Shown here piece by piece: positions 89 through 35,543 of a stretch of DNA of 36,217 nt (position 1 is its first letter; every line of letters begins with the position of its first letter). The DNA lies in NCBI RefSeq assembly GCF_016888135.1, contig NZ_JACSWB010000123.1:1-36217 (forward strand). The letters run 5' to 3'. Under the pieces are notes generated by a model. The model did not search any database. It was not told the DNA's origin and worked only from the letters and a program-made list of their open reading frames with translations. The translations under genes and the position numbers were made by a program. The DNA is from Leptolyngbya sp. CCY15150 (GTDB taxonomy: Bacteria; Cyanobacteriota; Cyanobacteriia; RECH01).

Positions 89-192
89 TTTTTTTTGAGA
101 ACATCGGGGTAGGAGTTTGTGGGATAACGTTATTCCACAATGACCGGAAGAACGCATCTGGGGAGTGAAGAAACGGTCAGGATGGTCATCAC

Positions 193-229
193 AGGAGGCT
201 GTGCTACGGACAACGGTAGCCTCCTTTTG
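193..229 (+). terminator. Hairpin with short T-run ahead of the conflict operon (terminator or attenuator)
   Basis: The 8-base arm AGGAGGCT (193-200) is complementary to AGCCTCCT (218-225), followed by a short T-stretch. A second pairing, GCTAC (203-207) with GTAGC (216-220), competes for bases 218-220, so two alternative folds are possible. It lies about 55 bases before the likely first start codon of the operon. It could terminate upstream transcription or act as an attenuator. The structure is visible in the sequence; the function is inferred. Confidence 0.4.
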
Positions 230-280
230 GCACATCGGTTAGACTGTGGTGACACTTGTATAGGTCAATGTAGGCTAACT

Positions 281-604
281 ATGACAAAGCTTGTGCAGTT
301 TGATTTGGGTGATGGCGAGAGCATCTTGATGGAAGTGGATGAAGTCGAGTCTGATGAAATAACACCTGTTTCCAAGTCACCAGGCGAAATTGCGGCCCAG
401 GCACGTCAAACCTTCAGCCAAGCTATGGCTGGCGTCACACCCATGGTGCGATCCTTGAAGGCACGGTTGGATGCTCTGAATGATCCGGCAGATGAAGTCG
501 AGGTGAAATTCAGCGTTAAGCTGAGTGGCGAGGTGGGGGCAGTTGTGACCAAAGTAGGGGGAGAAGCCACCTACGAAATCACGCTGAAGTGGAAGAAGCA
601 ATGA
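281..604 (+). CDS. Trypco1 / CU044_2847-type small protein of a trypsin-linked conflict system
   Basis: A protein of 107 residues starting MTKLVQFDLGDG. It has the layout of the trypsin-co-occurring domain 1 (CU044_2847) family: an N-terminal beta-rich 'L-V-x-F-x-L-x-D-G' strand, a central helix (about 45-70, IAAQARQTFSQAM) and C-terminal strands with the pattern VEVKFSVKLSGEVGAVV...GEATYEITLKW. In this family the protein is encoded beside trypsin-like peptidases and is thought to be a regulator or partner, not an enzyme. I prefer the start at 281. The longer frame from 140 adds 47 residues unlike the family and runs through the hairpin at 193-229. The stop overlaps the next start by four bases (ATGA), which suggests translational coupling. 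Confidence 0.7.
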   Translation: MTKLVQFDLGDGESILMEVDEVESDEITPVSKSPGEIAAQARQTFSQAMAGVTPMVRSLKARLDALNDPADEVEVKFSVKLSGEVGAVVTKVGGEATYEITLKWKKQ

Positions 605-2376
605 CGTTCAGTGTTACCGATTATGAACGGGCAACGGTGCGAATTCTTTCAAATGACAAGAATGTAGTTGTGGGAACCGGGTTCTTGGTTGCACCAGGGT
701 ATGTTTTGACCTGTGCCCATGTTGTACTGGAAGCCATGGGTATACCGAAAACAGATGTCAAGACCCATGAAGATCTGTTTACTAATATCATTCAGCTAAA
801 TTTCCATATCCTAGCTCCCAATGCCATGATCAAGGCTAGGGTAATCGACTGGGTTCCCTATCAATTAAACATGGGCGATATTGCAGGACTTAAGCTCCTG
901 AGTCCGGCCCCTGAAGCTGTGCGGCCGATTCATCTCCTTGAGACCCGTGGCGAAGATGTTGAAGCCGATTGCCATTTAGTGTACGGCTTTGGTAGTCCTG
1001 AAGGTGGACGTTCTGACGCCTATCGTCCCAAAACTCAGGTGACCGATGAGCGCTGGCAACTTTGCAAGTATGACGATCCCAACGATGAAACTATTCGTCC
1101 TGGATTTAGCGGTGCGCCGTTATGGAATGACAGGACAAAAGCTGTTCTTGGAATGATCGCAACGGCAGCGGTCAAGGCAAAAGAAGATTTAAAGAGTACG
1201 GCCTACGCCATTCCCACTTCGAAGCTCCGTCCCGTTCTCAATACGATTGATGCCCATTACATTGCAGATGTGCTGGAAGAACATTGGGATCAATCTCAGC
1301 TCACAACTATTACTGAAACGGCATTTCAATTATGTGACAGCGATGGCGATAAGGCTAAACATCCTGAGTTGCGAGATCGCCTGACCTTTCTAAGCAGCCT
1401 ATCTAATCGAGAGTGGTGGCAAAACGATAGGGAGGTTGATCGCCTCACTCAGTTCGTCATGTTTGTCATCGTCTTGCAAGATAATCCTGCGCCATCGCTT
1501 TTGCATGCGCTCAAGACATGGGTAACATTCCGCCAGTTTGACTTTGAAAAGCTCTACTTTAAAGCCGACCAATATCGTAAAAAGCGCAAGATATCTGCTA
1601 CTCAAACCCAGGAACACCTAGTCATCCAGATTAAGGCGGATGAGCAGGATCCTGCTAGAGCAAACATCTCGATTTGGATCATTCGCGATCGCGATCGCTA
1701 TGATCCCCTAGAGCCACCTAAACCGAGCTTGTCTAATGAGGCGATCGCTCTGGCTGACTTACCCGATTTCTTGGATCAATGGATTTCTAGTCAAGACATA
1801 TTGGATGAACCGATGCTGCATTGCTTTGTGGCCCGTTCTCAACTGAGCAGCGATCTAGATGCTTGTGGAACGCAATCAGATTTGACCCTTGGCAACCAAT
1901 ATCAACTGGTCATGCGGACGGATCTGAGCCAGTCGCCAACGAGCCCTCAATACTACCGTCGCTGGCAGCAAAAATGGCAATCTCTAGAAAGCAACTATCA
2001 CTCACAAGCCAACGTTAGCGTGGTACGAGCAGATAGCCGTCAATCTGCATTACTATTCAAACAACTCAAGTCGGCAGAGATTGGCATCTTGGAGAATCTG
2101 ACCAGCGATCGCACGGATGCAGTTTTCAAATTCTTGGCAGATAAAGTAGCGCTTCCGGTTGTTTTGTGGGCGAGAAAAGAGAACCTCTGTTCCGACATCG
2201 ATCGCATTCTCGATTGTACAGTGATCGACTTGCCTAAGCGTGTCCTAGAAGAACGCCAAGAGGCGATTGAAGATGAGGAAAAAGTGTCGTTAGGCTATCA
2301 TTTGAGCTTGGTATGGGATGATCCAAAGGTTGTCCCGCCTACGATGATGGCGCAGATCGATCCAGAGATGTGTTAA
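601..2376 (+). CDS. Trypsin-like serine peptidase with VMAP-type C-terminal region
   Basis: 591 residues from ATG 601; a GGAAG Shine-Dalgarno-like stretch sits at 591-595. ATG 589 in the same frame would add four residues. Residues 8-215 form a trypsin-fold protease with an apparently intact triad: His40 in TCAHV, Asp93 in MGDIAGLKL and Ser170 in PGFSGAP. Residues 255-330 are helical and may be an effector-associated or linker region. Residues 330-590 resemble the VMAP-C region: strands LVIQIKAD and ISIWIIRD, then LPDFLDQW, LHCFVARSQL, YQLVMR and a final VVLWAR-like strand. In vWA-MoxR-VMAP systems this protein is the likely effector, cleaving cell proteins when the ATPase module is triggered. 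There is no signal peptide, so it is probably cytoplasmic. The protease call is firm; the VMAP-C call is from pattern recognition. Confidence 0.75.
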   Translation: MTFSVTDYERATVRILSNDKNVVVGTGFLVAPGYVLTCAHVVLEAMGIPKTDVKTHEDLFTNIIQLNFHILAPNAMIKARVIDWVPYQLNMGDIAGLKLLSPAPEAVRPIHLLETRGEDVEADCHLVYGFGSPEGGRSDAYRPKTQVTDERWQLCKYDDPNDETIRPGFSGAPLWNDRTKAVLGMIATAAVKAKEDLKSTAYAIPTSKLRPVLNTIDAHYIADVLEEHWDQSQLTTITETAFQLCDSDGDKAKHPELRDRLTFLSSLSNREWWQNDREVDRLTQFVMFVIVLQDNPAPSLLHALKTWVTFRQFDFEKLYFKADQYRKKRKISATQTQEHLVIQIKADEQDPARANISIWIIRDRDRYDPLEPPKPSLSNEAIALADLPDFLDQWISSQDILDEPMLHCFVARSQLSSDLDACGTQSDLTLGNQYQLVMRTDLSQSPTSPQYYRRWQQKWQSLESNYHSQANVSVVRADSRQSALLFKQLKSAEIGILENLTSDRTDAVFKFLADKVALPVVLWARKENLCSDIDRILDCTVIDLPKRVLEERQEAIEDEEKVSLGYHLSLVWDDPKVVPPTMMAQIDPEMC

Positions 2377-2389
2377 ACCCCTTGCGGCC

Positions 2390-3529
2390 ATGAGCGATCC
2401 ACAACCTCCAACCCCCAATCCCAACCTCTTCTGCCCTATTTTCACCGGCAGCGGTGAGCCCAATCCCGATGCGTTGAACAATCTGCCACCACCGCCCACC
2501 TGGCGACAGGCCGATCGCCGCCAAGAGGAACGGGGCAAGACCTTCCAAGCCGAGCCCAATGAAATTGAATTGGTGAATGCAGCTCTCTACCTACGGCGGC
2601 CGCTTTTGGTGACGGGGAAGCCGGGCAGTGGCAAAACATCCCTAGCCTATGCGATCGCTCGTGAGCTAGATCTAGGTGAAGTCTTGTACTGGCCCGTTAC
2701 CACCCGAACCACGCTCAAGGATGGTCTATATCTTTACGACGCGATCGCTCGTTTGCAGGATGCCAGCAAGCAAGAGCCAAATGAGGATAAGCGCTTTGAC
2801 AACATCGGTCGATATATCCGCTTAGGGCCCTTGGGAACTGCCCTGCTGCCGTCGAAGAAGCCGAGAATCTTGATTGTGGATGAGATCGACAAGAGCGATA
2901 TCGACCTGCCCAACGATCTGCTCTACGTTTTTGAGGAAGGCCGCTTCGAGATTCCGGAATTGGTGCGCATTGAAGATATTCAATCCCAGGTGCCGGTGCG
3001 CACGGCCTACAAAGATCACCATGAATTTACGTTTAACCCGCCTCCGAGCCAGGATGAGACATCGCAGGAGAATTTGGAGGCGATTAAAAACGGAAAAACC
3101 ACCATCACCAATGGTCGAGTTGCCTGCACTCAGTTTCCTCTGATGATTTTGACGAGCAACGGTGAGCGCGATTTTCCCCCGCCGTTCCTGCGTCGCTGCA
3201 TTCGTTTGACCATGGGCGAACCCAATGAACAACGGTTGACGGACATCGTCAAAGCCCACCTACGGCAGGAGGTCAATGGTGAAGCTCTGATTACCCAAGC
3301 AGAGGAGCAGATCACGGCCCTCGTGAAGCGCTTTATTGAAAAACGCAGCGATCGCAGCAAGGGAGATCTGGCCACCGATCAACTTCTCAATGCGATTTAT
3401 TTAATTACCCGCGATCGCAAGCCCAATATCAGCACCGATGTTCATGCAACTGGAGACCTGATTGACCGCCTGTGGAAACATCTGAGCAGCAGCGAAGACC
3501 AACGATCGGACAGTTCGCGCAACGGTTAG
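2390..3529 (+). CDS. MoxR-type AAA+ ATPase of the conflict operon
   Basis: 379 residues. Walker A is GKPGSGKTS at residues 76-84, Walker B is ILIVDEID at 160-167, sensor 1 is LTSNGERDFP near 254-263, and candidate arginine-finger residues RR lie at 268-269 in FLRRC. The DEIDKSDIDLPNDLL stretch and the beta-hairpin-like insertion between Walker B and sensor 1 fit the MoxR/dynein-like helix-2-insert clade. It starts 13 bases after the peptidase stop and its last 58 bases overlap the following gene, so all are probably one transcript. By family knowledge it would hydrolyse ATP to remodel or license its partners, the vWA-like protein and the peptidase/VMAP protein. The N-terminal 50 residues are proline-rich and probably disordered. 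Confidence 0.85.
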   Translation: MSDPQPPTPNPNLFCPIFTGSGEPNPDALNNLPPPPTWRQADRRQEERGKTFQAEPNEIELVNAALYLRRPLLVTGKPGSGKTSLAYAIARELDLGEVLYWPVTTRTTLKDGLYLYDAIARLQDASKQEPNEDKRFDNIGRYIRLGPLGTALLPSKKPRILIVDEIDKSDIDLPNDLLYVFEEGRFEIPELVRIEDIQSQVPVRTAYKDHHEFTFNPPPSQDETSQENLEAIKNGKTTITNGRVACTQFPLMILTSNGERDFPPPFLRRCIRLTMGEPNEQRLTDIVKAHLRQEVNGEALITQAEEQITALVKRFIEKRSDRSKGDLATDQLLNAIYLITRDRKPNISTDVHATGDLIDRLWKHLSSSEDQRSDSSRNG

Positions 3530-6219
3530 CGCAACTGGGGCTAGATCTAGACGGCCGAGACCTAGCTGACGCGGTTTGGCTAGCTCAGTTTATGCCGCCA
3601 GCAATCTACACGGCTCCAGAACCGGAGGTAGAGCCCACGCCATCGCCCATTCAAACCGTAGAGGCTCCCTCTATCCCCGCAGCCGAACCCACCACGAGTC
3701 TCTACATCGACGATCGCCCTCCATCCACACCCCAAGACACTGCCGAGACTCCGGAACCTCAAGACAAGCCCCAAGGAACGCCGTTCCCAGTTCCAGCGGC
3801 TCCGGCTCTGCGCACACGGTTGGATCTAGCGCGATCGCTGCGGCCGTTGATGCGAAAGGTGCCATCCCGCAACCGCTACGACCTAGATGAAGAGGCCACC
3901 GTCACCCAAATTGCCGAAACTCAATTGCAACTTCCGGTGGTGCGATCGCAGCCAGAACGCTGGCTTGATCTAGAGTTTATCGTTGAAGATTCTAAAACGA
4001 CGGTCATCTGGGAACGGGCGATCGCTGAATTGCAGCACTTGATGGAATACCAAGGGGCCTTTCGCACCGTGCGCACGTGGCAGTTGAGCGTTCCCGATCC
4101 CAACACCGCCAAACCGGACGATGTGCGTCTGTTTCCTCGATGGCGCGATCGCTCTCCTGCCATGAATCAACGTCCTCGCAATACCCGAGAATTGCGGGAT
4201 ATGGGCGGGCGGCGGCTGTTGCTCTTGGTCACCGACTGCACATCCCTGCTATGGCGACGGGGCATCATCCACTATACTCTGCTGGATTGGGCTACGGTGC
4301 AGCCGGTTTCGATTGTGCAATTATTTCCAGAACGCCTATGGTCTCGCACCGCCTTGAGTGATGGGCACATGGTTCGATTGCGGGCGATCGCTCCGGGACT
4401 ACCGAGCGCGCTCCTAGATATGGATAACGCACCGGTCTTGTCTGGAGCTAGCGCTGATGACTGGGATGACGACGGGCAGGATCCGGCACAGGATGACGAT
4501 CAACGCCTGCTCACGTTGCCCATTGTGACGTTGAATCCACAATCGATGCTGCGCTGGGCCCGAGTGGTGGCTGGGATGGGCGATACACCAACGCCAGGAC
4601 GTGCTTTTGAGCTAAGTATGATCCGGCAAGCCGCCCAGGACTATGATGCATCACGGGAGGCGATCGCCCAACATCCCCCGCGTACGGCCCGCCAACGGGT
4701 TGCCCTGTTCCGCGCTACGGCATCGGAGACAGCGGAGAAGCTGGCAGGCTATATGGCCGCTACGCCGGTGAGTTTGCCGGTGATTGATCTGCTGCGCGAT
4801 GTCTTTGTGCCCGAGGCGCGGCAAGACCATGTGGCGGAGGTGTTGCTGAGTGGTTTATTGCAGCGTTGCGACCAGGTGGATGATGAGGTCTGCCGCTATC
4901 GGTTCTTTGGCGATCAGGAGACGGCTGGGGAGGGCGATCGCGTCCGTGATCTTCTCCTCGATGGCGTGCCGGTGCAGCGGACGATGGAGGTCTTAAATCG
5001 CCTCACCGAACTCATCCAAGATCGAGCTGGCAATACCCTCACCAGTTTTGAAGCCTTCCTCGCTGCTTTTGAAGAATCGGGAACGGCGTTGGGGGATAGG
5101 GCCTTACCGCTGGCCGAAGTCGGGCTGAGTGTTTTACGGCGTTTGGGAGGCTCCTACAGAGCGATCGCCCAGCGCTATGAGACGGTGTTGCGGCCTACGC
5201 CGTTGTCTTCTGATCAAAAACAGCCGGTTCAATCTGAAGGTATCACCTATGAAGAGCTGGAATACGAAGTCGCGGAATTCATCAACTTTCCGCCCCTGCA
5301 AACCATTACCTACACATCCAAAACCATTGTCGATATCCAAGATCGCTTCGACTTCATTACTGCCATGATCGAACAACAGCTTCGATTTCTAGGGATAGGG
5401 CAAGAGTGGGTCATCCAAGAGCAGGCAGGAGTGGCCTGGGGCTATGTTGAACCTTTAAACGATGATTCAGAACAACTCATCGCCCTCAACATGATCGCCA
5501 TTCCCGGCGGCACCTTCACCATGGGTGCGCCTGAGGGGGAGCTAGAGAGCAATGATAGTGAACGCCCGCAGCATGAGGTGACCGTTCCACCATTTTGCAT
5601 GAGCCAAACGCCCATTACCCAAGCACAGTGGCGGATTGTGGCAGGCTATGATCCGATAGATCGGAAACTAGATCCAGATCCTTCTCGCTTTAAGAGTGAT
5701 CACCGCCCCGTAGAGAGGGTATCTTGGGATGATGCTCAAGAATTTTGTCGGCGCTTATCTCTGAAAAAGGGGCAAGTCTATCGGCTGCCCAGCGAAGCGG
5801 AGTGGGAATACGCCTGCCGGGCTGGCACCACCACGCCGTTTCATTTTGGAGAGATGCTCACCACCGATCTAGCAAACTATAACGGGAACTCTAACTATGG
5901 CGATGAACCTAAAGGTGTGCATCATGAGGAAACAACAGATGTAGGATCATTTCCAGGTAATCCATGGGGTTTTTATGATATGCATGGCAATGTGTGGGAA
6001 TGGTGTGAGGATAGTTGGCACAATAATTACAAAGGTGCACCGGAGGATGGCAGTGCATGGATAAGCAAAAACGAAAAACATGAAAATAAGGTAAGCCGTG
6101 GCGGGTCTTGGAACTTCAAGCCGTGGCATTGCCGGTCTGCGTACCGTAACTACATCATCCCTGCAGATCGCAGCTACTACGGTTTTCGCGTTGTTTGTCA
6201 CGCCCGAGGCACTCCTTAA
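3472..6219 (+). CDS. SAV_2336 N-terminal-related, degenerate vWA protein with C-terminal FGE-sulfatase-like domain
   Basis: 915 residues from GTG 3472. Without this start the 5' part of the first domain would be lost. Domain order: SAV_2336-type N-terminal helix (10-45); Pro/Thr-rich linker (45-110); degenerate vWA-like domain (about 160-310, with VEDSKT where a MIDAS motif DxSxS is expected and LLLVTDCTSL as the second strand); helical repeat region typical of SAV_2336 proteins (about 375-570, FRATASETAEKLAGYMAATP and HVAEVLLSGLL); FGE-sulfatase/C-type-lectin-like domain (671-912, IPGGTFTMG, VSWDDAQEFC, RLPSEAEWEYACRAG, DMHGNVWEWC, RGGSW). The cysteine pair of true formylglycine-generating enzymes is missing after RGGSW, so I read it as a ligand-binding sensor, not an oxidase. 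It is a likely vWA partner of the upstream MoxR ATPase. Confidence 0.75.
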   Translation: METSEQQRRPTIGQFAQRLAQLGLDLDGRDLADAVWLAQFMPPAIYTAPEPEVEPTPSPIQTVEAPSIPAAEPTTSLYIDDRPPSTPQDTAETPEPQDKPQGTPFPVPAAPALRTRLDLARSLRPLMRKVPSRNRYDLDEEATVTQIAETQLQLPVVRSQPERWLDLEFIVEDSKTTVIWERAIAELQHLMEYQGAFRTVRTWQLSVPDPNTAKPDDVRLFPRWRDRSPAMNQRPRNTRELRDMGGRRLLLLVTDCTSLLWRRGIIHYTLLDWATVQPVSIVQLFPERLWSRTALSDGHMVRLRAIAPGLPSALLDMDNAPVLSGASADDWDDDGQDPAQDDDQRLLTLPIVTLNPQSMLRWARVVAGMGDTPTPGRAFELSMIRQAAQDYDASREAIAQHPPRTARQRVALFRATASETAEKLAGYMAATPVSLPVIDLLRDVFVPEARQDHVAEVLLSGLLQRCDQVDDEVCRYRFFGDQETAGEGDRVRDLLLDGVPVQRTMEVLNRLTELIQDRAGNTLTSFEAFLAAFEESGTALGDRALPLAEVGLSVLRRLGGSYRAIAQRYETVLRPTPLSSDQKQPVQSEGITYEELEYEVAEFINFPPLQTITYTSKTIVDIQDRFDFITAMIEQQLRFLGIGQEWVIQEQAGVAWGYVEPLNDDSEQLIALNMIAIPGGTFTMGAPEGELESNDSERPQHEVTVPPFCMSQTPITQAQWRIVAGYDPIDRKLDPDPSRFKSDHRPVERVSWDDAQEFCRRLSLKKGQVYRLPSEAEWEYACRAGTTTPFHFGEMLTTDLANYNGNSNYGDEPKGVHHEETTDVGSFPGNPWGFYDMHGNVWEWCEDSWHNNYKGAPEDGSAWISKNEKHENKVSRGGSWNFKPWHCRSAYRNYIIPADRSYYGFRVVCHARGTP
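6097..6198 (+). other. DGR-like variable region at the 3' end of the SAV_2336-FGE gene
   Basis: Codons for residues 876-909, from RGGSW to GFRVVC. The framework RGGSW, CRSA, R, DR and GFRV matches the second FGE-like gene, while the surface positions between differ. About ten of thirteen such positions use NNC codons (for example AAC, TTC, TAC, ATC), the outcome expected when AAC template codons are mutated at adenines. No matching template repeat was found in the window. Framework codons differ synonymously from the copy at 7255, so the two were not recently rewritten from one template. Confidence 0.4.
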
Positions 6220-6546
6220 CCCTCTGCTTTTTCCTTTATGCCAGCGTTTCGCGCCATTTTTTGTGCTTTGGGAGATATCAAACCTCATAGAGGTAACGTA
6301 GGGTGGGCAATGACCACATGTATGACACTTATACCTGCCCTCAAAGCCAATATGCCTTTTGAGAAAGGAGATGTAATGGACAGTTTTTGAGACGAAGAAA
6401 TAGGATCTCGTCGGTTGAGCCAATCAAGAGACGCTAGGCCATAGGTCAAGCTATAATTCAACGGTGCAGTTGATGAACGAGTAACAACAATGTTGGCTGT
6501 TGCGGTTGCGCCAGTCCCACCGACAAGAACATATGGGATATAACGG
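6220..6546. other. Intergenic stretch between the two FGE-like genes
   Basis: About 327 bases with no convincing gene. A GTAGGGTGGGCA motif (6299-6310), typical of dispersed bacterial repeats, is present but its second arm is incomplete. There is no clear terminator and no template-repeat-like AAC-rich copy of the adjacent 3' ends. An open minus-strand frame (6285-6581) has no family look and runs into the downstream gene. The spacing is unusual because all earlier genes in the operon overlap or nearly touch. Confidence 0.4.
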
Positions 6547-7389
6547 ATGCCTGAGTCTTCTACCCCCAGCCGCCGCCTCATTCTGCGGGAAACAACCCAC
6601 CAAGGTCAGTGCTTCATCGAACATCTGGATGACAACACGACCCTAGACATGATGCTCATCCCCGGTGGTCAGTTTCTTATGGGGTCAACTCCGGAGGATC
6701 CCGGTAGTTACGAGCGTGAGTATCCGCAACATCCCGTTAAGATCCAACCCTTTGCCATGGCCCGTACTCCCATGACTCAAGAACAGTGGCGAGTGGTAGC
6801 CGGGTACGACCGGGTTGATCGAGATCTAACACCTGATCCCTCCGGCTTTAAAGGTGCAAATCGACCAGTGGAGCAGGTATCGTGGGACGATGCCCAGGAG
6901 TTTTGTGCCCGTCTGTCTCGGCAAACCAATCGCACCTATCGCCTGCCCAGCGAAGCCGAATGGGAATATGCCTGCCGAGCTGGTACCACCACGCCGTTTC
7001 ACTTTGGCGAAACCCTCAGCGATGAACTGGCAAACTACAGAGCCAAAGAAATTTTTGGGCGAGGTATTCCTGGAGAATATCGAGATCAAACCACCGATGT
7101 CAAAACGTTTCCGCCCAATGCTTTTGGGCTATACGATATGCATGGTAATGTGCTGGAATGGTGCGAAGACGATTGGTATGGTAGCTATAATGAAGCGCCG
7201 AACGATGGCAGTGCGCAGGTAAATAAAAGTGAAGATAATAAAATTAAAGTGCTGCGCGGCGGTTCGTGGGTCTTCATTCCTAGGGATTGCCGTTCTGCCT
7301 ATCGCTACGGCGACTCGCGCGACACCCGCCACAACTACGCCTTCGGTTTTCGGGTCTGTTGCGTTTTGCCGAGTATTCTTCTTGATTAA
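6547..7389 (+). CDS. Free-standing FGE-sulfatase-like (C-type-lectin-fold) protein
   Basis: 280 residues, essentially one FGE-sulfatase domain (about 32-275) after a short N-terminal extension. The markers are MLIPGGQFLMGS, VSWDDAQEFC (111-120), RLPSEAEWEYACRAG (132-146), GLYDMHGNVLEWC (194-206) and RGGSW (237-241). It is closely related to the C-terminal domain of the preceding gene over its whole length, so one is probably a duplication. The cysteine pair of active formylglycine-generating enzymes is not present, which favours a binding role. No signal peptide is seen. It may be an additional interchangeable sensor for the conflict operon. Shine-Dalgarno is weak. Convergent with the FkbM gene 48 bases downstream. 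Confidence 0.8.
   Translation: MPESSTPSRRLILRETTHQGQCFIEHLDDNTTLDMMLIPGGQFLMGSTPEDPGSYEREYPQHPVKIQPFAMARTPMTQEQWRVVAGYDRVDRDLTPDPSGFKGANRPVEQVSWDDAQEFCARLSRQTNRTYRLPSEAEWEYACRAGTTTPFHFGETLSDELANYRAKEIFGRGIPGEYRDQTTDVKTFPPNAFGLYDMHGNVLEWCEDDWYGSYNEAPNDGSAQVNKSEDNKIKVLRGGSWVFIPRDCRSAYRYGDSRDTRHNYAFGFRVCCVLPSILLD
7255..7362 (+). other. DGR-like variable region at the 3' end of the second FGE-like gene
   Basis: Codons for residues 237-272 (RGGSW to FRVCC). Framework residues RGGSW, P, CRSA, R, RD, R and GFRV are shared with the copy at 6097, while the intervening positions differ. Eleven of about sixteen variable positions are NNC codons (GTC, TTC, TAC, GGC, GAC, ACC, CAC, AAC, TAC, GCC, TTC). 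This is the pattern left by adenine-specific mutagenesis of AAC codons in known DGR target genes of the FGE-type lectin fold. ATT, AGG, GAT, TAT and TCG do not fit a pure AAC template. No template repeat or reverse transcriptase is in the window. Confidence 0.45.
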
Positions 7390-22405: not shown

Positions 22406-23518
22406 TCAAGGGCGGGTCAGATAGCAATGGCAATCTGGCTTTTCAATCACCGTTTCCACCAGCGCATTCAGCGTCACCGCCGCCAGCAGCCCCCCACCCA
22501 AACTACCCTGCAGAGTAATGTAAGGAATCGGTAAAGTCATCAACCGTCGCTTGGCGGCGGGGGCATGGCTAAAGCCAATGGGCATCCCGATCACCAGGGC
22601 CGGCTGGATCTGCTGCTGGGCAATCAACTGGTCGATGGTGAGCAGCACCGACGGAGCATAGCCGACCACCAGCACAGATCCCTTAGGACAGTCCTGCAGC
22701 CGTTGCTTCCAGGCTGGGTCGTTCCAAAAGGCTTGCTCAGCATCGTTTACCCCGGTCACGTGGGGATCTTGAATCAGAACCTCCACGGAGCAGCCCAGAT
22801 GAGCCAATCGGGTGTGATCTAAGGCGGCAGCGATCGCCGGTAGATCCGCCACAATGGGGCAGCCATCTTTCAGCACATGACGAGCGGTAGCGATCGCATC
22901 GGGACTCCAGCGCACAAAATTGATCAGGCTCACATCTCCACAGGCCAAGACCAGTTGCCGCAGCAGGTGAGCGCTAATCTCAGAATAGTGAGACAAGTCG
23001 GGCAGTAAGCCCTGCAACGATTCTTGAAACGCCTCTGGGTGGGTCTCGGTTTCTGCATCAAGACGGCTCCAAAGCTGATCAAGCTGCCCCAGACCATCCT
23101 GAGCATCGACGTGCAAATGCTTCAACTGGGCCAGGGCCTCAGCCTGGGCCTGCTGTCCAGGGCGATCGCGCCCCAGTAACCCCTCCAATGCGGTGGCTGT
23201 ATGGCGGAGGCGGGTCAACTGCTGCATCACGGAGCGGTACTGCTGCTGCAACTGCGCCATCAGAGCTGGATTATCCGTGGTATCGGACGGACTGTCTAGC
23301 AACTGGCGAATGTGGGATAGCTGAAACCCCTGCTGCTTCAGCGCCACAATCCGCTGCAGTTGCTGCACATCTTGCTGGGTATACAGCCGATAGTTGCCCT
23401 GGGATCGCTGGGCAGGCGGCAGCAGGCCCAGGGTGTGGTAATGCCGCACCATGCGCGGGGTCACGTCGCCCTGAACCGCCTCCGTGAGTTCTTTGATGGT
23501 CAAATGTTGCGTTGTCAT
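22406..23518 (-). CDS. coaR: CoaR, MerR-family cobalt-responsive activator with precorrin-isomerase-like sensor domain
   Basis: 370 residues. The N-terminal MerR helix-turn-helix runs through about residues 5-75 (LTIKELTEAV, PRMVRHYHTLGLLPP, GNYRLYTQQDV). A helical linker (about 85-150) leads to a C-terminal precorrin-8X methylmutase (CobH)-like domain (about 160-360, ISAHLLRQLVLACGD, ADLPAIAAAL, PALVIGMPIGF, LQGSLGGGLLAAVTLNALV). The protein ends in Cys363-His-Cys365, the C-terminal metal motif known for Synechocystis CoaR. The His normally before 'A-C-G' in CobH is Leu here, which fits a sensor that no longer catalyses. It is divergent from coaT, its known target, so both domain order and context support the name. 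Confidence 0.9.
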   Translation of the reverse strand: MTTQHLTIKELTEAVQGDVTPRMVRHYHTLGLLPPAQRSQGNYRLYTQQDVQQLQRIVALKQQGFQLSHIRQLLDSPSDTTDNPALMAQLQQQYRSVMQQLTRLRHTATALEGLLGRDRPGQQAQAEALAQLKHLHVDAQDGLGQLDQLWSRLDAETETHPEAFQESLQGLLPDLSHYSEISAHLLRQLVLACGDVSLINFVRWSPDAIATARHVLKDGCPIVADLPAIAAALDHTRLAHLGCSVEVLIQDPHVTGVNDAEQAFWNDPAWKQRLQDCPKGSVLVVGYAPSVLLTIDQLIAQQQIQPALVIGMPIGFSHAPAAKRRLMTLPIPYITLQGSLGGGLLAAVTLNALVETVIEKPDCHCYLTRP

Positions 23519-23653
23519 AGCTCTAGTCTACCCAAGCTAGTATCGCAAGATTGAAAAACGAAGACTGAACAACGAAAAGGAAGCTAGGACATATAAGGGT
23601 TTCCGCCTTCGCAAATAGGCCGAAGTAATCTGCCTCAGAGTACTAGTCTATCC

Positions 23654-23690
23654 AAACATTGACATTAACACTGATGTCAATGTTTAAGGT
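23654..23690 (+). promoter_or_regulatory. CoaR-type operator-promoter of coaT
   Basis: The -35 TTGACA (23659-23664) and the -10-like TAAGGT (23685-23690) are 20 bases apart, the long spacing typical of MerR-family promoters. The dyad ACATTAACA-CTGA-TGTCAATGT (23662-23683) fills the spacer. A second perfect 11-base inverted pair AAACATTGACA/TGTCAATGTTT (23654-23664 and 23675-23685) overlaps it. CoaR would bind and, with Co2+, untwist this spacer to start coaT transcription. Confidence 0.7.
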
Positions 23691-23698
23691 AACAAGGT

Positions 23699-23847
23699 AT
23701 CCATAACCAGCAATTCTCAGTATGAACATCTTGCATGAGCTTATTGAGAACAGTGTCAATAGATTGCTTGAAAAAGCTCATTCTTTCGTTCAGGATTCGG
23801 CAGATTGGGCAAGCTACTGGTCAAAATGAGAATTGCTGATCCATAAC
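23699..23847. mobile_element. 131-bp MITE-like element with 9-bp target duplication inserted in the coaT leader
   Basis: The direct repeats ATCCATAAC at 23699-23707 and 23839-23847 flank an element of 131 bases (23708-23838). Its ends are perfect 12-base inverted repeats, CAGCAATTCTCA (23708-23719) and TGAGAATTGCTG (23827-23838). Inside is one small frame of 35 codons (23722-23829) whose stop falls in the right inverted repeat. It could be a transposase-start remnant or chance. There is no transposase gene, so movement would need help in trans. Removing the element and one duplication leaves the coaT start 36 bases after the promoter -10, a normal distance. Confidence 0.8.
23722..23829 (+). 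other. 35-codon open frame inside the MITE-like element
   Basis: ATG 23722 to TGA 23827-23829 encodes 35 residues beginning MNILHELIENSVNRLLEKAH. The composition is protein-like and helical, but there is no Shine-Dalgarno. It lies wholly inside the inserted element and its stop is part of the right inverted repeat. The simplest reading is a residue of a transposase coding sequence or a chance frame. In the coaT leader it could also be translated as an upstream ORF. Confidence 0.3.
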
Positions 23848-23865
23848 CTAACGACCTATTCACCC

Positions 23866-25785
23866 ATGACCTCTGCCACACCGCCCCTATCCAACCTGTT
23901 GAAAGACCATCCCGACGCGATCGCTGCCCTAGTCTGCGCGATTTTAGTGCTCTTGGGATGGCAAACTCTGGCCATGGGCTGGATTGGCGTCGGCCTGTTT
24001 ATTTTGACGGCAGCCTACGTCATCGGCGGCTTTGACAGTGCCCGCGACGGCATCACCACGCTGCTGGATGAAAAAGAACTGGATGTCGATCTGTTAATGA
24101 TTGTGGCGGCCTTAGGGGCGGCAGGGCTGGGGCTCTGGCAACAGGACTACTACTTGATGGTCGATGGGGGCGTGCTCATCTTGATTTTTGCCATTAGCGG
24201 CGCACTGGAAGGCTACGCCATGCGGCGCACGGAGCGCAGTATCCAGGGACTCATGAGTCTCACCACCGATACGGCTCGGGTGATCGTTCAGGGGCGGGAA
24301 ACTCAGGTGGCGATCGCTGCCCTCCAGATTGGCGACCAGGTTTTGGTGAAACCGGGAGAACTGGTGCCCACCGATGGAATTGTGGTGGAAGGCAGCAGCA
24401 CCCTCAACCAAGCCTCTATTACTGGGGAATCAATGCCTACGGAGAAAAGCATCGGTGATGAAGTCTTTGCCGGCACGCTGAACGGCAGTGGAGCCCTGCA
24501 ACTGCGCATTCATCAGCCTCCCGAAAGTAGCTTAATTCAGCGGGTGATCCGTCTGGTTCAGCAAGCCCAGCAGGATGCACCGCCGTCCCAGCAGTTCATT
24601 GAACGGTTTGAACGCGGCTATGCCAAGGTGATTGTGGGGGCGGGGATTATCCTGGGCACCTTACCGCCGTTTCTCATGGGCTGGAGCTGGGAAGAAACGA
24701 TTTATCGCGCCTTAATTTTCCTGGTGGTTGCCTCCCCCTGTGCTCTGATGGCCTCGATCATGCCGGCGCTGCTGTCGGGAATTGCCAACGGTGCCCGCCA
24801 TGGGATTTTGTTCAAAAATGGGGCGCAGTTGGAAAAACTTGGCAATGTACAGGCGATCGCTTTTGATAAAACCGGCACTCTGACCACCGGCAACCTGCAG
24901 GTCGTTGATAGCCTCGCTGTTCCCCATCAGTCTCCAGACCAAGTCCTACGGATAGCTGCCGCCTTGGAAAGCCTATCAGAACATCCTATTGGGGCAGCGA
25001 TCGTCCAAGCAGCCCGGCAGCAGCATCTCACTTGGACAACCGCCAGCCAAGGGCAGGCCCAAGCCGGACGCGGCATCGTCGGGACGGTTGATCAACAACC
25101 AGCACTGGTGGGGAATGCCACCTTTGTGCGATCGCATCTGCCGCACTTGGATCCAACTCTGATCGCCCAAAGCCAGCAGTGGGAAGCTGAGGGAAACACC
25201 GTCGTATGGGTCGCTCACGGTGGGAAGCTATTGGGCATCATTGCCGTGGCCGATACCGTACGTCCTGCAGCGGCGGCAGCGATCGCCCAGTTGAAAGCTA
25301 TGGGCATCAAGCATATCGTCATGCTCACCGGCGATAATTCTCGCACCGCCCACCACATTGCTCAGAACATTGGCGTAGACCAAGTGTATGCCGATCTGTT
25401 GCCGGAAGGTAAGGTAAGCGTTATCAAGCAGCTACAGACCCAGTATCAAACCGTGGCGATGGTGGGGGATGGCATCAATGACGCACCAGCCTTAGCCCAA
25501 GCATCCGTCGGCATCGCTATGGGACTTTCGGGCAGTGATGTGGCGCTGGAAACGGCTGATACCATCCTCATGGCAGATCGCCTAGAGCATCTGGAACGAG
25601 CGATCCGTCTTGGTCGGCGAGCCCAGAGCGTGGTCAAGCAAAATATTGCGTTCGCCCTTTTCTTTATTATGGTGCTCCTGATTGCAAACTTTATGGGCAA
25701 CATCACCTTACCCCTAGGCGTTCTGGGACATGAGGGATCCACAGTCATTGTTACCTTAAGTGGATTACGCCTGTTGAGAGGTTAA
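23866..25785 (+). CDS. coaT: CoaT, P1B-4-type cobalt-exporting ATPase
   Basis: 639 residues from ATG 23866. The TTG start at 23833 would begin inside the right inverted repeat of the inserted element, so I reject it. P-type ATPase motifs are complete: TGES (186-189), Ser-Pro-Cys in the transmembrane metal site (290-292), DKTGT phosphorylation site (334-338), SEHP (371-374), GDGIND (534-539). SPC plus the HEGST motif of the last helices (622-626) define the P1B-4 group, which exports Co2+ and related metals. There is no N-terminal heavy-metal domain. It is divergent from coaR; expression should be cobalt-inducible. The inserted element at 23708-23838 lengthens its leader. Confidence 0.9.
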   Translation: MTSATPPLSNLLKDHPDAIAALVCAILVLLGWQTLAMGWIGVGLFILTAAYVIGGFDSARDGITTLLDEKELDVDLLMIVAALGAAGLGLWQQDYYLMVDGGVLILIFAISGALEGYAMRRTERSIQGLMSLTTDTARVIVQGRETQVAIAALQIGDQVLVKPGELVPTDGIVVEGSSTLNQASITGESMPTEKSIGDEVFAGTLNGSGALQLRIHQPPESSLIQRVIRLVQQAQQDAPPSQQFIERFERGYAKVIVGAGIILGTLPPFLMGWSWEETIYRALIFLVVASPCALMASIMPALLSGIANGARHGILFKNGAQLEKLGNVQAIAFDKTGTLTTGNLQVVDSLAVPHQSPDQVLRIAAALESLSEHPIGAAIVQAARQQHLTWTTASQGQAQAGRGIVGTVDQQPALVGNATFVRSHLPHLDPTLIAQSQQWEAEGNTVVWVAHGGKLLGIIAVADTVRPAAAAAIAQLKAMGIKHIVMLTGDNSRTAHHIAQNIGVDQVYADLLPEGKVSVIKQLQTQYQTVAMVGDGINDAPALAQASVGIAMGLSGSDVALETADTILMADRLEHLERAIRLGRRAQSVVKQNIAFALFFIMVLLIANFMGNITLPLGVLGHEGSTVIVTLSGLRLLRG

Positions 25786-33545: not shown

Positions 33546-34447
33546 TCTGCGAGCAGCAAATCCACCAGCGCCTGGGTAATGGGATAGCGGGTTTGCCGTT
33601 CAAAATGGATAAACATAGGACTAGGATTGGCTTCCAGAAACACATATTGGCCATCCGGACGGCGTCGCCAGTCGATCGCCGTCCAGTCTAACCATAGGGC
33701 CCGGGCGATCGCTCGACAGTCTTGCTCCACAGCATCCGGCAAGGTTAGGGGAAGCAGTTCCGCTTGGGCATCTAGGCGGAAATCTAGGGACGGACTGCGA
33801 ATTTCAGCCCCATAGACGCGATCGCCAATCACGTAGGTGCGGATGTTGGTGCCGGGAATGTATTCCTGGAGAGCGATCGGCGCACAGGATAGCGCAAGCT
33901 GCAGGCGTTCGGGCTGCAGATGTTGCGGCGTTAGGGGCTGGATATAGGCTCCCCCATAAACCGGCTTGAAAATCACCTTAGCGTGGCGCTGGGCAAACGC
34001 CAGCACCGCCGCCGGATCATTGCCCACCAGAGTATCGGGAATCGTTATTCCCAACTGATGCACTACCCCCAACTGGCGAGGTTTTTCCTTGTGGAACTGG
34101 TAGGCCCGCCAAGAATTCACCCAGCGCGTTGACGTGCTCTGCATCACCGTGCGCAGAACGGCCATGGCATCATTCCCCGCAATCTGACGCTGGTCATCGG
34201 GTAGCGAGGGCACCTGTATCGGAGCCAAGCTTCGCCAAAACACGCTGCGGATGCTCTGCCAGTTCCATCGCTGCCCAGACGGCAAGGTCAAAAAGCCCTC
34301 GGACGTCTGGGGCGACCATGAAACACGGAGCTGGGTCGGAAACTGGGCAATGTCAAGGTAGTCTACGTCAGTGCCCGTCTGAGCGATCGCCTCCCGCAGG
34401 TGCGCCGCATGGACATCCTTAGAGTTGCCCAGAATGAGGATCTGCAT
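33542..34447 (-). CDS. ATP-grasp ligase, probable graspetide macrocyclase
   Basis: 301 residues, close to the size of microviridin/plesiocin-type ligases. ATP-grasp features: KVIFKPVYGGAYI (157-169, ATP lysine), QEYIPGTNIRTYVIGDRVYGAEI (194-216, hinge and nucleotide site) and VFLEANPSPMF (269-279) with Glu272 and Asn274 as metal ligands. The N-terminus MQILILGNSKDVHAAHL matches the pre-ATP-grasp domain. Its first 29 bases overlap the 3' end of the precursor gene, so the two are coupled. By family knowledge it would activate Glu/Asp side-chain carboxylates with ATP and join them to Thr/Ser hydroxyls, making omega-ester rings in each core. No second ligase is present; plesiocin-type pathways need only one. 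Confidence 0.82.
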   Translation of the reverse strand: MQILILGNSKDVHAAHLREAIAQTGTDVDYLDIAQFPTQLRVSWSPQTSEGFLTLPSGQRWNWQSIRSVFWRSLAPIQVPSLPDDQRQIAGNDAMAVLRTVMQSTSTRWVNSWRAYQFHKEKPRQLGVVHQLGITIPDTLVGNDPAAVLAFAQRHAKVIFKPVYGGAYIQPLTPQHLQPERLQLALSCAPIALQEYIPGTNIRTYVIGDRVYGAEIRSPSLDFRLDAQAELLPLTLPDAVEQDCRAIARALWLDWTAIDWRRRPDGQYVFLEANPSPMFIHFERQTRYPITQALVDLLLAD

Positions 34448-35543
34448 ACCCCAGTCCGCTATTCAAAACGCCAGATGATAGATCGGACTCATCAAGCCAA
34501 GGATCTACTCCACTCTGAAACTCGGTCGTTGCGCCGCCTTCTTCACCCAACGCCAAGGTAGTCACCACTTCATCTCCATCTCCCATGCCCCAGTCACCGC
34601 CTTCTTCACCCAGAGCTAAGGTGGTGAAATCGGGTTCAGAGCCAGGCTGTCCGATAATCGGATCGCTGTCTCCAAGAGCATCCGACGTTCCATCCGACGG
34701 GGGCCAGGCATCATCACCCCCCTCTTCCCCCAGGGCAAGGGTGGTAAAGCGAATCAAATCGTCCCCTTTGTCTCCCCCCTCTTCACCCAGAGCACGGGTT
34801 GACATCTGCATATCCTCGTAGCCAGTCAGGCAATCGCCCCCTTCTTCACCGATCGCTAGGGTCGTGGCCCAATCATCATCGAGCTCAATCAGCTCACCAT
34901 CGACCGGCTGGAGATCATCGCCACCTTCCTCGCCGATCGCAAAGGTTGTAGCCCAGCCATCACCGCCTTCCTCGCCGATCGCTTCGGTTGTAGCCCAACC
35001 ATCGCCACCTTCTTCCCCTAGGGCCAAGGTTGTAGCCCAACCATCGCCACCTTCTTCCCCAGATGCTTCGGTTGTGAGCACATCATCATCAACCGGCAGC
35101 CAACAGTCACCGCCTTCTTCCCCAACCATCCTAGTCGTAGCCCAGCCATCGCCGCCTTCTTCCCCTAAAGCTAGCGTCGTAGCCCAGTCATCTCCAATCT
35201 CGTCAGGAACCTCGCCTTCAACAACGCCAGGCTCGAAAAAACGCAGCACAATTGGCTCTAATTGCTGGTAGATAGCCTCAAACTCTTCTTCCCCAGCCAA
35301 GCCATGCTCACTCAGCAGATCACGAACCCATTGCTGCAAACGATCCGCCGTTAGATCCGTAGAGGAAGCGATCGCCAAGACCTGCTCCTGAACGGCTGGA
35401 TCGTCGAACAGAGCCACAGCCCGATCGAAAAGGCGCGGGGTCAAGTCAGGAACAATCTCACCAAGACGTGCCTCCCAGTCGGGGAGGGCGCGGGACAAAT
35501 CAGCAAACGACAGGCCAAACGGATGAGAAAATGTGGTACTCAT
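34419..35543 (-). CDS. Multi-core graspetide (plesiocin-like) precursor with eleven TTxxxxEE cores
   Basis: 374 residues. The leader (about 1-115) is helical and contains EEFEAIYQQLEPIVLRFFEP near 85-105, which may be the ligase-recognition helix. Cores follow at 122, 136, 157, 171, 185, 199, 227, 248, 267, 307 and 328, each eight residues of the form T-T-x-A-[LI]-G-E-E or close. The one at 248 begins Ser-Thr. Most are followed by GGD, often with a GDGWA spacer. A decayed core TSDALGDS lies near 286. TTxxxxEE is the motif of plesiocin (group 2 omega-ester peptides), in which Thr and Glu form ester-linked hairpins. AGGG lies a few bases before ATG 35543. The last 29 bases overlap the ligase gene. 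Confidence 0.85.
   Translation of the reverse strand: MSTTFSHPFGLSFADLSRALPDWEARLGEIVPDLTPRLFDRAVALFDDPAVQEQVLAIASSTDLTADRLQQWVRDLLSEHGLAGEEEFEAIYQQLEPIVLRFFEPGVVEGEVPDEIGDDWATTLALGEEGGDGWATTRMVGEEGGDCWLPVDDDVLTTEASGEEGGDGWATTLALGEEGGDGWATTEAIGEEGGDGWATTFAIGEEGGDDLQPVDGELIELDDDWATTLAIGEEGGDCLTGYEDMQMSTRALGEEGGDKGDDLIRFTTLALGEEGGDDAWPPSDGTSDALGDSDPIIGQPGSEPDFTTLALGEEGGDWGMGDGDEVVTTLALGEEGGATTEFQSGVDPWLDESDLSSGVLNSGLGYADPHSGQL
34539..35180 (-). repeat. Core-repeat array of the graspetide precursor
   Basis: DNA region coding residues 122-335. It holds eleven repeats of the sense (ACC/ACG/ACA)-(ACC/ACT)-...-GGC/GGT-GAA/GAG-GAA/GAG-GGC-GGT type. Six repeats in the leader-proximal half are spaced by 14 or 21 residues; spacing is looser towards the C-terminus. 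Nucleotide copies are similar enough to suggest unequal recombination or slippage. Confidence 0.8.

Follow-up and report, generated by a model that had tools for sequence, protein, structure and literature searches.

The locus described here, from Leptolyngbya sp. CCY15150, encodes a protein with eleven copies of a short TTxxxxEE-type core next to an ATP-grasp ligase, and raises two questions: does the pair belong to the graspetides, and would its product be one large multi-ring protein or a set of eleven short peptides? It was analysed within the window, the whole 36,217-nucleotide stretch of contig NZ_JACSWB010000123.1 (positions 1 to 36,217, forward strand). Membership of the graspetide class is secure at the level of sequence. 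We consider it probable that the two genes form a graspetide pair, in which the ligase would make double rings on eleven cores of an intact, multi-headed protease inhibitor; ring formation, ring connectivity, the intact product and the protease targets are the parts of this reading that we infer.

The precursor frame was read again from the sequence, which confirmed the coordinates, minus strand, length of 374 amino acids and visible core array given in an earlier note on this DNA (Table 1). It contains ten motifs of the strict TTxxxxEE form and one STxxxxEE motif, the latter being core 8, where serine replaces the first threonine at residue 248. The count of eleven intact TTxxxxEE motifs in that note is therefore ten when taken strictly, and eleven when STRALGEE is included. 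Every core (11/11) is closed by GEEGG, which had been claimed for nearly all of them. The spacing of the cores is, in order, 14, 21, 14, 14, 14, 28, 21, 19, 40 and 21. Strict motifs average 0.03 and never number more than 2 in 20,000 shuffles matched in composition.

Table 1 Positions of the precursor, its cores and the neighbouring genes in the window.
Feature	Position	Strand	Basis or remark
Graspetide precursor gene, 374 aa, 11 cores	34419..35543	-	Frame and homologues
HPF leader motif, residues 7-9	35517..35525	-	Conserved in 42/44 leaders examined
Extra leader segment, about residues 30-106	35226..35456	-	Predicted helices; no double-glycine site
Core 1, TTLALGEE	35157..35180	-	Motif count
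Core 2, TTRMVGEE	35115..35138	-	Motif count
Core 3, TTEASGEE	35052..35075	-	Motif count
Core 4, TTLALGEE	35010..35033	-	Motif count
Core 5, TTEAIGEE	34968..34991	-	Motif count
Core 6, TTFAIGEE	34926..34949	-	Motif count
Core 7, TTLAIGEE	34842..34865	-	Motif count
Core 8, STRALGEE, serine variant	34779..34802	-	Same ST- core in L002
Core 9, TTLALGEE	34722..34745	-	Motif count
Core 10, TTLALGEE	34602..34625	-	Motif count
Core 11, TTLALGEE	34539..34562	-	TSLALGEE in L002
ATP-grasp ligase (graspetide synthetase), 301 aa	33542..34447	-	DFR at residues 222-224; Pfam, NCBIfam and PDB matches
Rce1/CAAX-type membrane protease, 824 aa	31019..33493	-	48 bases behind ligase; pathway membership doubtful

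The core array is a protein-level feature under selection. Codon differences between the cores leave the residue the same in 262 cases and change it in 95, which indicates that the repeats are held by selection on the protein and not by recent DNA copying alone. The dN/dS of the precursor is 0.12 against the sister species (L002), and that of the ligase is 0.14. A frame on the opposite strand (34864-35271, plus strand) is a shadow of the precursor repeats. The sole cysteines of the core region, C147 and C238 (35103-35105 and 34830-34832), are each preceded by GGD, and the sister species retains both; a disulphide between them is possible. A promoter scan found nothing, and a search of a plasmid collection gave no match.

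The ligase gene lies on the same strand as the precursor gene, and its first 29 bases are shared with the end of the precursor gene. Its product matches the RimK-type ATP-grasp family in Pfam and has TIGR04187 as its best NCBIfam match; the scores do not reach the curated cut-offs for TIGR04187 and for MvdD/MvdC, so that the assignment holds at the family level only. The best PDB relative is 7drm (6e-30), which we take to be PsnB, the plesiocin macrocyclase; it is placed ahead of 5ig9 and 5ig8, presumably the microviridin ligases, and of CdnC (7mgv). The DFR motif is present in the window ligase (D222, F223 and R224) and in all of the aligned homologues (71/71), with K161, E272 and N274 also conserved. 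This motif is reported to be critical for graspetide synthetase activity (PMC13097080).

Relatives were collected by scanning a single genome for each species, which gave 57 ligase loci in cyanobacteria. At most of these, a small precursor stands beside the ligase and comprises an HPF leader, a double glycine and 1-4 TTxxxxEEGG cores. C39-ABC exporters, HlyD proteins or PpiC isomerases are also encoded at several of these small-precursor loci. The window-type core is present in 53 related precursors, and the ligase is 51-67% identical to most of its cyanobacterial relatives, the sister species excepted. Among 386 genomes sampled from the phylum, 11 have the core array, in each case with the ligase near (hypergeometric p of about 2e-15). 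Within the genus the ligase is found in two of three genomes, and the pair is patchy. The shared core, the restriction of the array to ligase-bearing genomes, the DFR motif and the matches to 7drm and TIGR04187 bear out the earlier identification of a plesiocin-like graspetide precursor with an adjacent ATP-grasp ligase.

Several of the relatives have further features of their own. RTX calcium-binding proteins are encoded near the ligase at L004, L008, L022, L028 and L054, and the ligase is directly preceded there by a gene of the PpiC-type isomerase family. Such RTX neighbours were considered as extra substrates and rejected, as their sequences, when read through, contain no cores. At another locus (L103:2569-3093, plus strand), a divergently placed precursor contains T(T/K)xAYPSDDA-type repeats, which probably represent a further type of graspetide core.

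The array is very acidic, with 66 D/E in 257 residues, a composition that would also suit an unmodified repeat protein, metal-binding or structural for instance, standing beside an unrelated ATP-grasp ligase. We regard this as highly improbable: across the 386 genomes every array lies beside a ligase of this family, the core is the same as that of plesiocin-type precursors, and the threonine and glutamate positions are conserved, unlike position 3. Among the core positions that are not fixed by the search pattern, compared over 190 cores, position 3 is hypervariable (L/M/Y/K/Q/E/R, 2.71 bits), positions 4 (A) and 6 (G) hardly vary, and position 5 is mainly aliphatic. In the window, position 3 reads, in order, L R E L E F L R L L L, that is, six L, two R, two E and one F. 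From plesiocin work, position 3 is presumably the specificity residue, and its variability fits a putative role in protease contact.

The leader departs from the common plan of the relatives. The HPF motif, a candidate for the leader motif recognised by the ligase, is kept, and the double-glycine cleavage site is gone: residues 10-121 of the precursor contain no GG between the leader and the first core. As the first core starts at residue 122, the leader has about 120 residues; the earlier note gave about 115, and the atypical architecture had been missed. HPF is separated from the first core by 112 residues, compared with a median of 33, and the segment of about 75 residues between them (about 30-106) occurs only in the window and in the sister species. 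Its helices are predicted from two sequences with modest confidence (mean pLDDT of 59, with blocks of 51-81). The segment has no match in Pfam, NCBIfam, PHROGs or PDB, and no credible relative outside the genus in the 386 genomes; the best match there, to a large glycosyltransferase-like protein (34%, 7e-5), is weak and was taken as chance.

Precursors with a GG leader never carry more than four cores among the relatives examined. Arrays of at least six cores, which are those of the window, L002, Calothrix, Iningainema, L104 and L105-L108, have no double glycine just before the cores. These lineages are not independent, and the association is hence a pattern and not a test. In a quick ligase tree, arrays of at least six cores need about six label changes, at least two of them required by strongly supported branches; on this tree, such arrays have likely grown repeatedly. 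The sister species has eight cores in a different order, which indicates that the array is changing quickly. Eleven cores is a high number but not the record: relatives have up to 14. The statement that eleven is far more than the archetype thus stands against plesiocin, with four, and falls against these relatives.

Some relatives set their cores on Calx-beta domains or between helical-looking linkers. L104 follows the plan of an HPF leader, Calx-beta domains (PF03160, 2.7e-34) in the place of the helical segment of the window, and then cores, numbering seven by the search pattern and eight with one TNxxxxEE counted. Precursors L105-L108, from genomes of approximately 2 Mb in another class of the phylum, comprise 7-14 cores with helical-looking linkers. 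Individual frames of this kind include L104:7821-9623 (minus strand), a precursor directly before the ligase in which a folded domain is joined to graspetide cores, and L105:10874-12283 (plus strand), a 470-codon frame with 13-14 TTxxxxEE cores and amphipathic helical-looking linkers. In a Trichodesmium bin (L041:1-488, plus strand), a core array is followed by an RTX-like C-terminal tail and is cut by the contig start; the ligase frame of this locus has one TAA.

These architectures bear on whether the eleven cores stay together. A C39-type double-glycine peptidase, for example, could cut after each EEGG and release about eleven short bicyclic peptides. Consistent with such processing, GG follows 166 of 168 cores across the relatives, and D comes next in ten of the eleven window cores; C39 peptidases are encoded elsewhere in the same genome, a true GG is present in the leader of most relatives, and C39-ABC exporters are encoded at several of the loci. 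However, the usual C39 site has a hydrophobic residue at position -4, and in the window the residue at -4 before each GG is glutamate. Moreover, the window leader lacks GG, no C39 gene is linked, and in some relatives the cores sit on folded domains. We consider release as short peptides unlikely. The linkers between the window cores vary and have no common cleavage-like sequence apart from GG. An intact product is favoured because the leader GG site is absent and relatives mount their cores on folded domains; on the choice between one large product and eleven short peptides, the evidence leans towards the former.

Among the window genes searched, none encodes a dedicated exporter or peptidase linked to the precursor, upstream of which the contig ends after 674 bases. 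The gene 48 bases behind the ligase encodes a CAAX protease, which could be a dedicated enzyme for the maturation, or the removal of the leader, of precursors devoid of GG. It is also a neighbour in the Calothrix loci, where the leaders likewise lack GG, but it has another orientation there, and Iningainema (L029) and L104 lack it beside the ligase. Genes of the family occur in 47 of the 386 genomes; most of these have no ligase, and in those checked that do have it, the two are unlinked. On these counts we reject the CAAX protease as a general partner of the ligase, and a dedicated role in maturation seems improbable.

Two other groups of genes in the window were noted. A MerR-CbiC fusion (a CoaR-like cobalt regulator) is encoded beside a P-type ATPase at 22406-25785, a layout that we take to match the cobalt efflux system of Synechocystis. 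At 140-7389, genes for Trypco1, trypsin-VMAP, AAA and two FGE-sulfatase-domain proteins stand in a row that resembles a described NTP-dependent conflict system.

The preferred reading, an intact many-ringed product, would proceed as follows. The ligase would bind the HPF motif of the precursor leader and, with ATP, form two ester bonds per core, linking Thr1/Thr2 to Glu7/Glu8; as plesiocin and AMdnA suggest by analogy, it would modify the cores one after another. Eleven hairpin-like double rings would result on one polypeptide, corresponding to 22 dehydrations and esters (-396.2 Da). The product would stay whole, as a protein-sized multi-headed serine protease inhibitor, and the mixed residues at position 3 would direct a single molecule against chymotrypsin/elastase-like, trypsin-like and Glu-specific proteases. 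The graspetides characterised by 2022 were all protease inhibitors (PMC8939145), and the potency of plesiocin rises with the number of motifs (PMC13097080). According to the latter source, rosaritide and corallotide showed no inhibition of growth, and some recent graspetides have no known activity.

Compared with plesiocin (PsnA/PsnB of Plesiocystis pacifica, graspetide group 2), the window system shares TTxxxxEE cores, several cores per chain and a single ATP-grasp ligase. It differs in having eleven cores rather than four, a GG after each core, a longer leader with an extra helical segment, and no linked NHLM/C39 transporter as far as the contig extends; co-occurrence of an NHLM-type transporter in group 2 is high but not universal (PMC13097080). 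The cyanobacterial HPF...GG precursors share the HPF motif, the cores and a ligase of the same family, whereas their leaders are short with GG, their cores few and their spacers often rich in proline. The AMdnA microviridin precursor of Anabaena also carries several cores on one chain that one ligase modifies independently, but these are three cage-type microviridin cores, with another ligase branch and leader (PMC5934393).

Large precursors are not new to the class. Long-repeat or large precursors are reported for groups 15, 34, 35 and 41 (PMC13097080), those of groups 34, 35 and 41 being long or large as in the window; large or repeat-type precursors also occur in cluster 13 (PMC8939145). 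Corallotide (CorA, group 15) has a large precursor with a predicted N-terminal helical domain and five C-terminal repeats, but is built on KxxxD isopeptide bonds with an oxygenase and has no TTxxxxEE core (PMC13097080). The combination of eleven cores, no double glycine, a leader insert and mixed position 3 was not found in the graspetide papers examined. The class is known, and this combination appears to be a new variant.

Taken further, and only tentatively, graspetide cores may serve as modules of whole proteins in several lineages of the phylum, where precursors without GG would carry 6-14 cores on a helical or Calx-beta scaffold and act as intact many-headed inhibitors, with position 3 diversified against several protease classes. 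The window pair would add protein-sized arrays to the plesiocin-type graspetides, alongside small exported peptides. Its mixed-specificity cores on one chain would represent a natural set, and its leader, ligase and scaffold may provide ready-made parts for multi-headed protease inhibitors.
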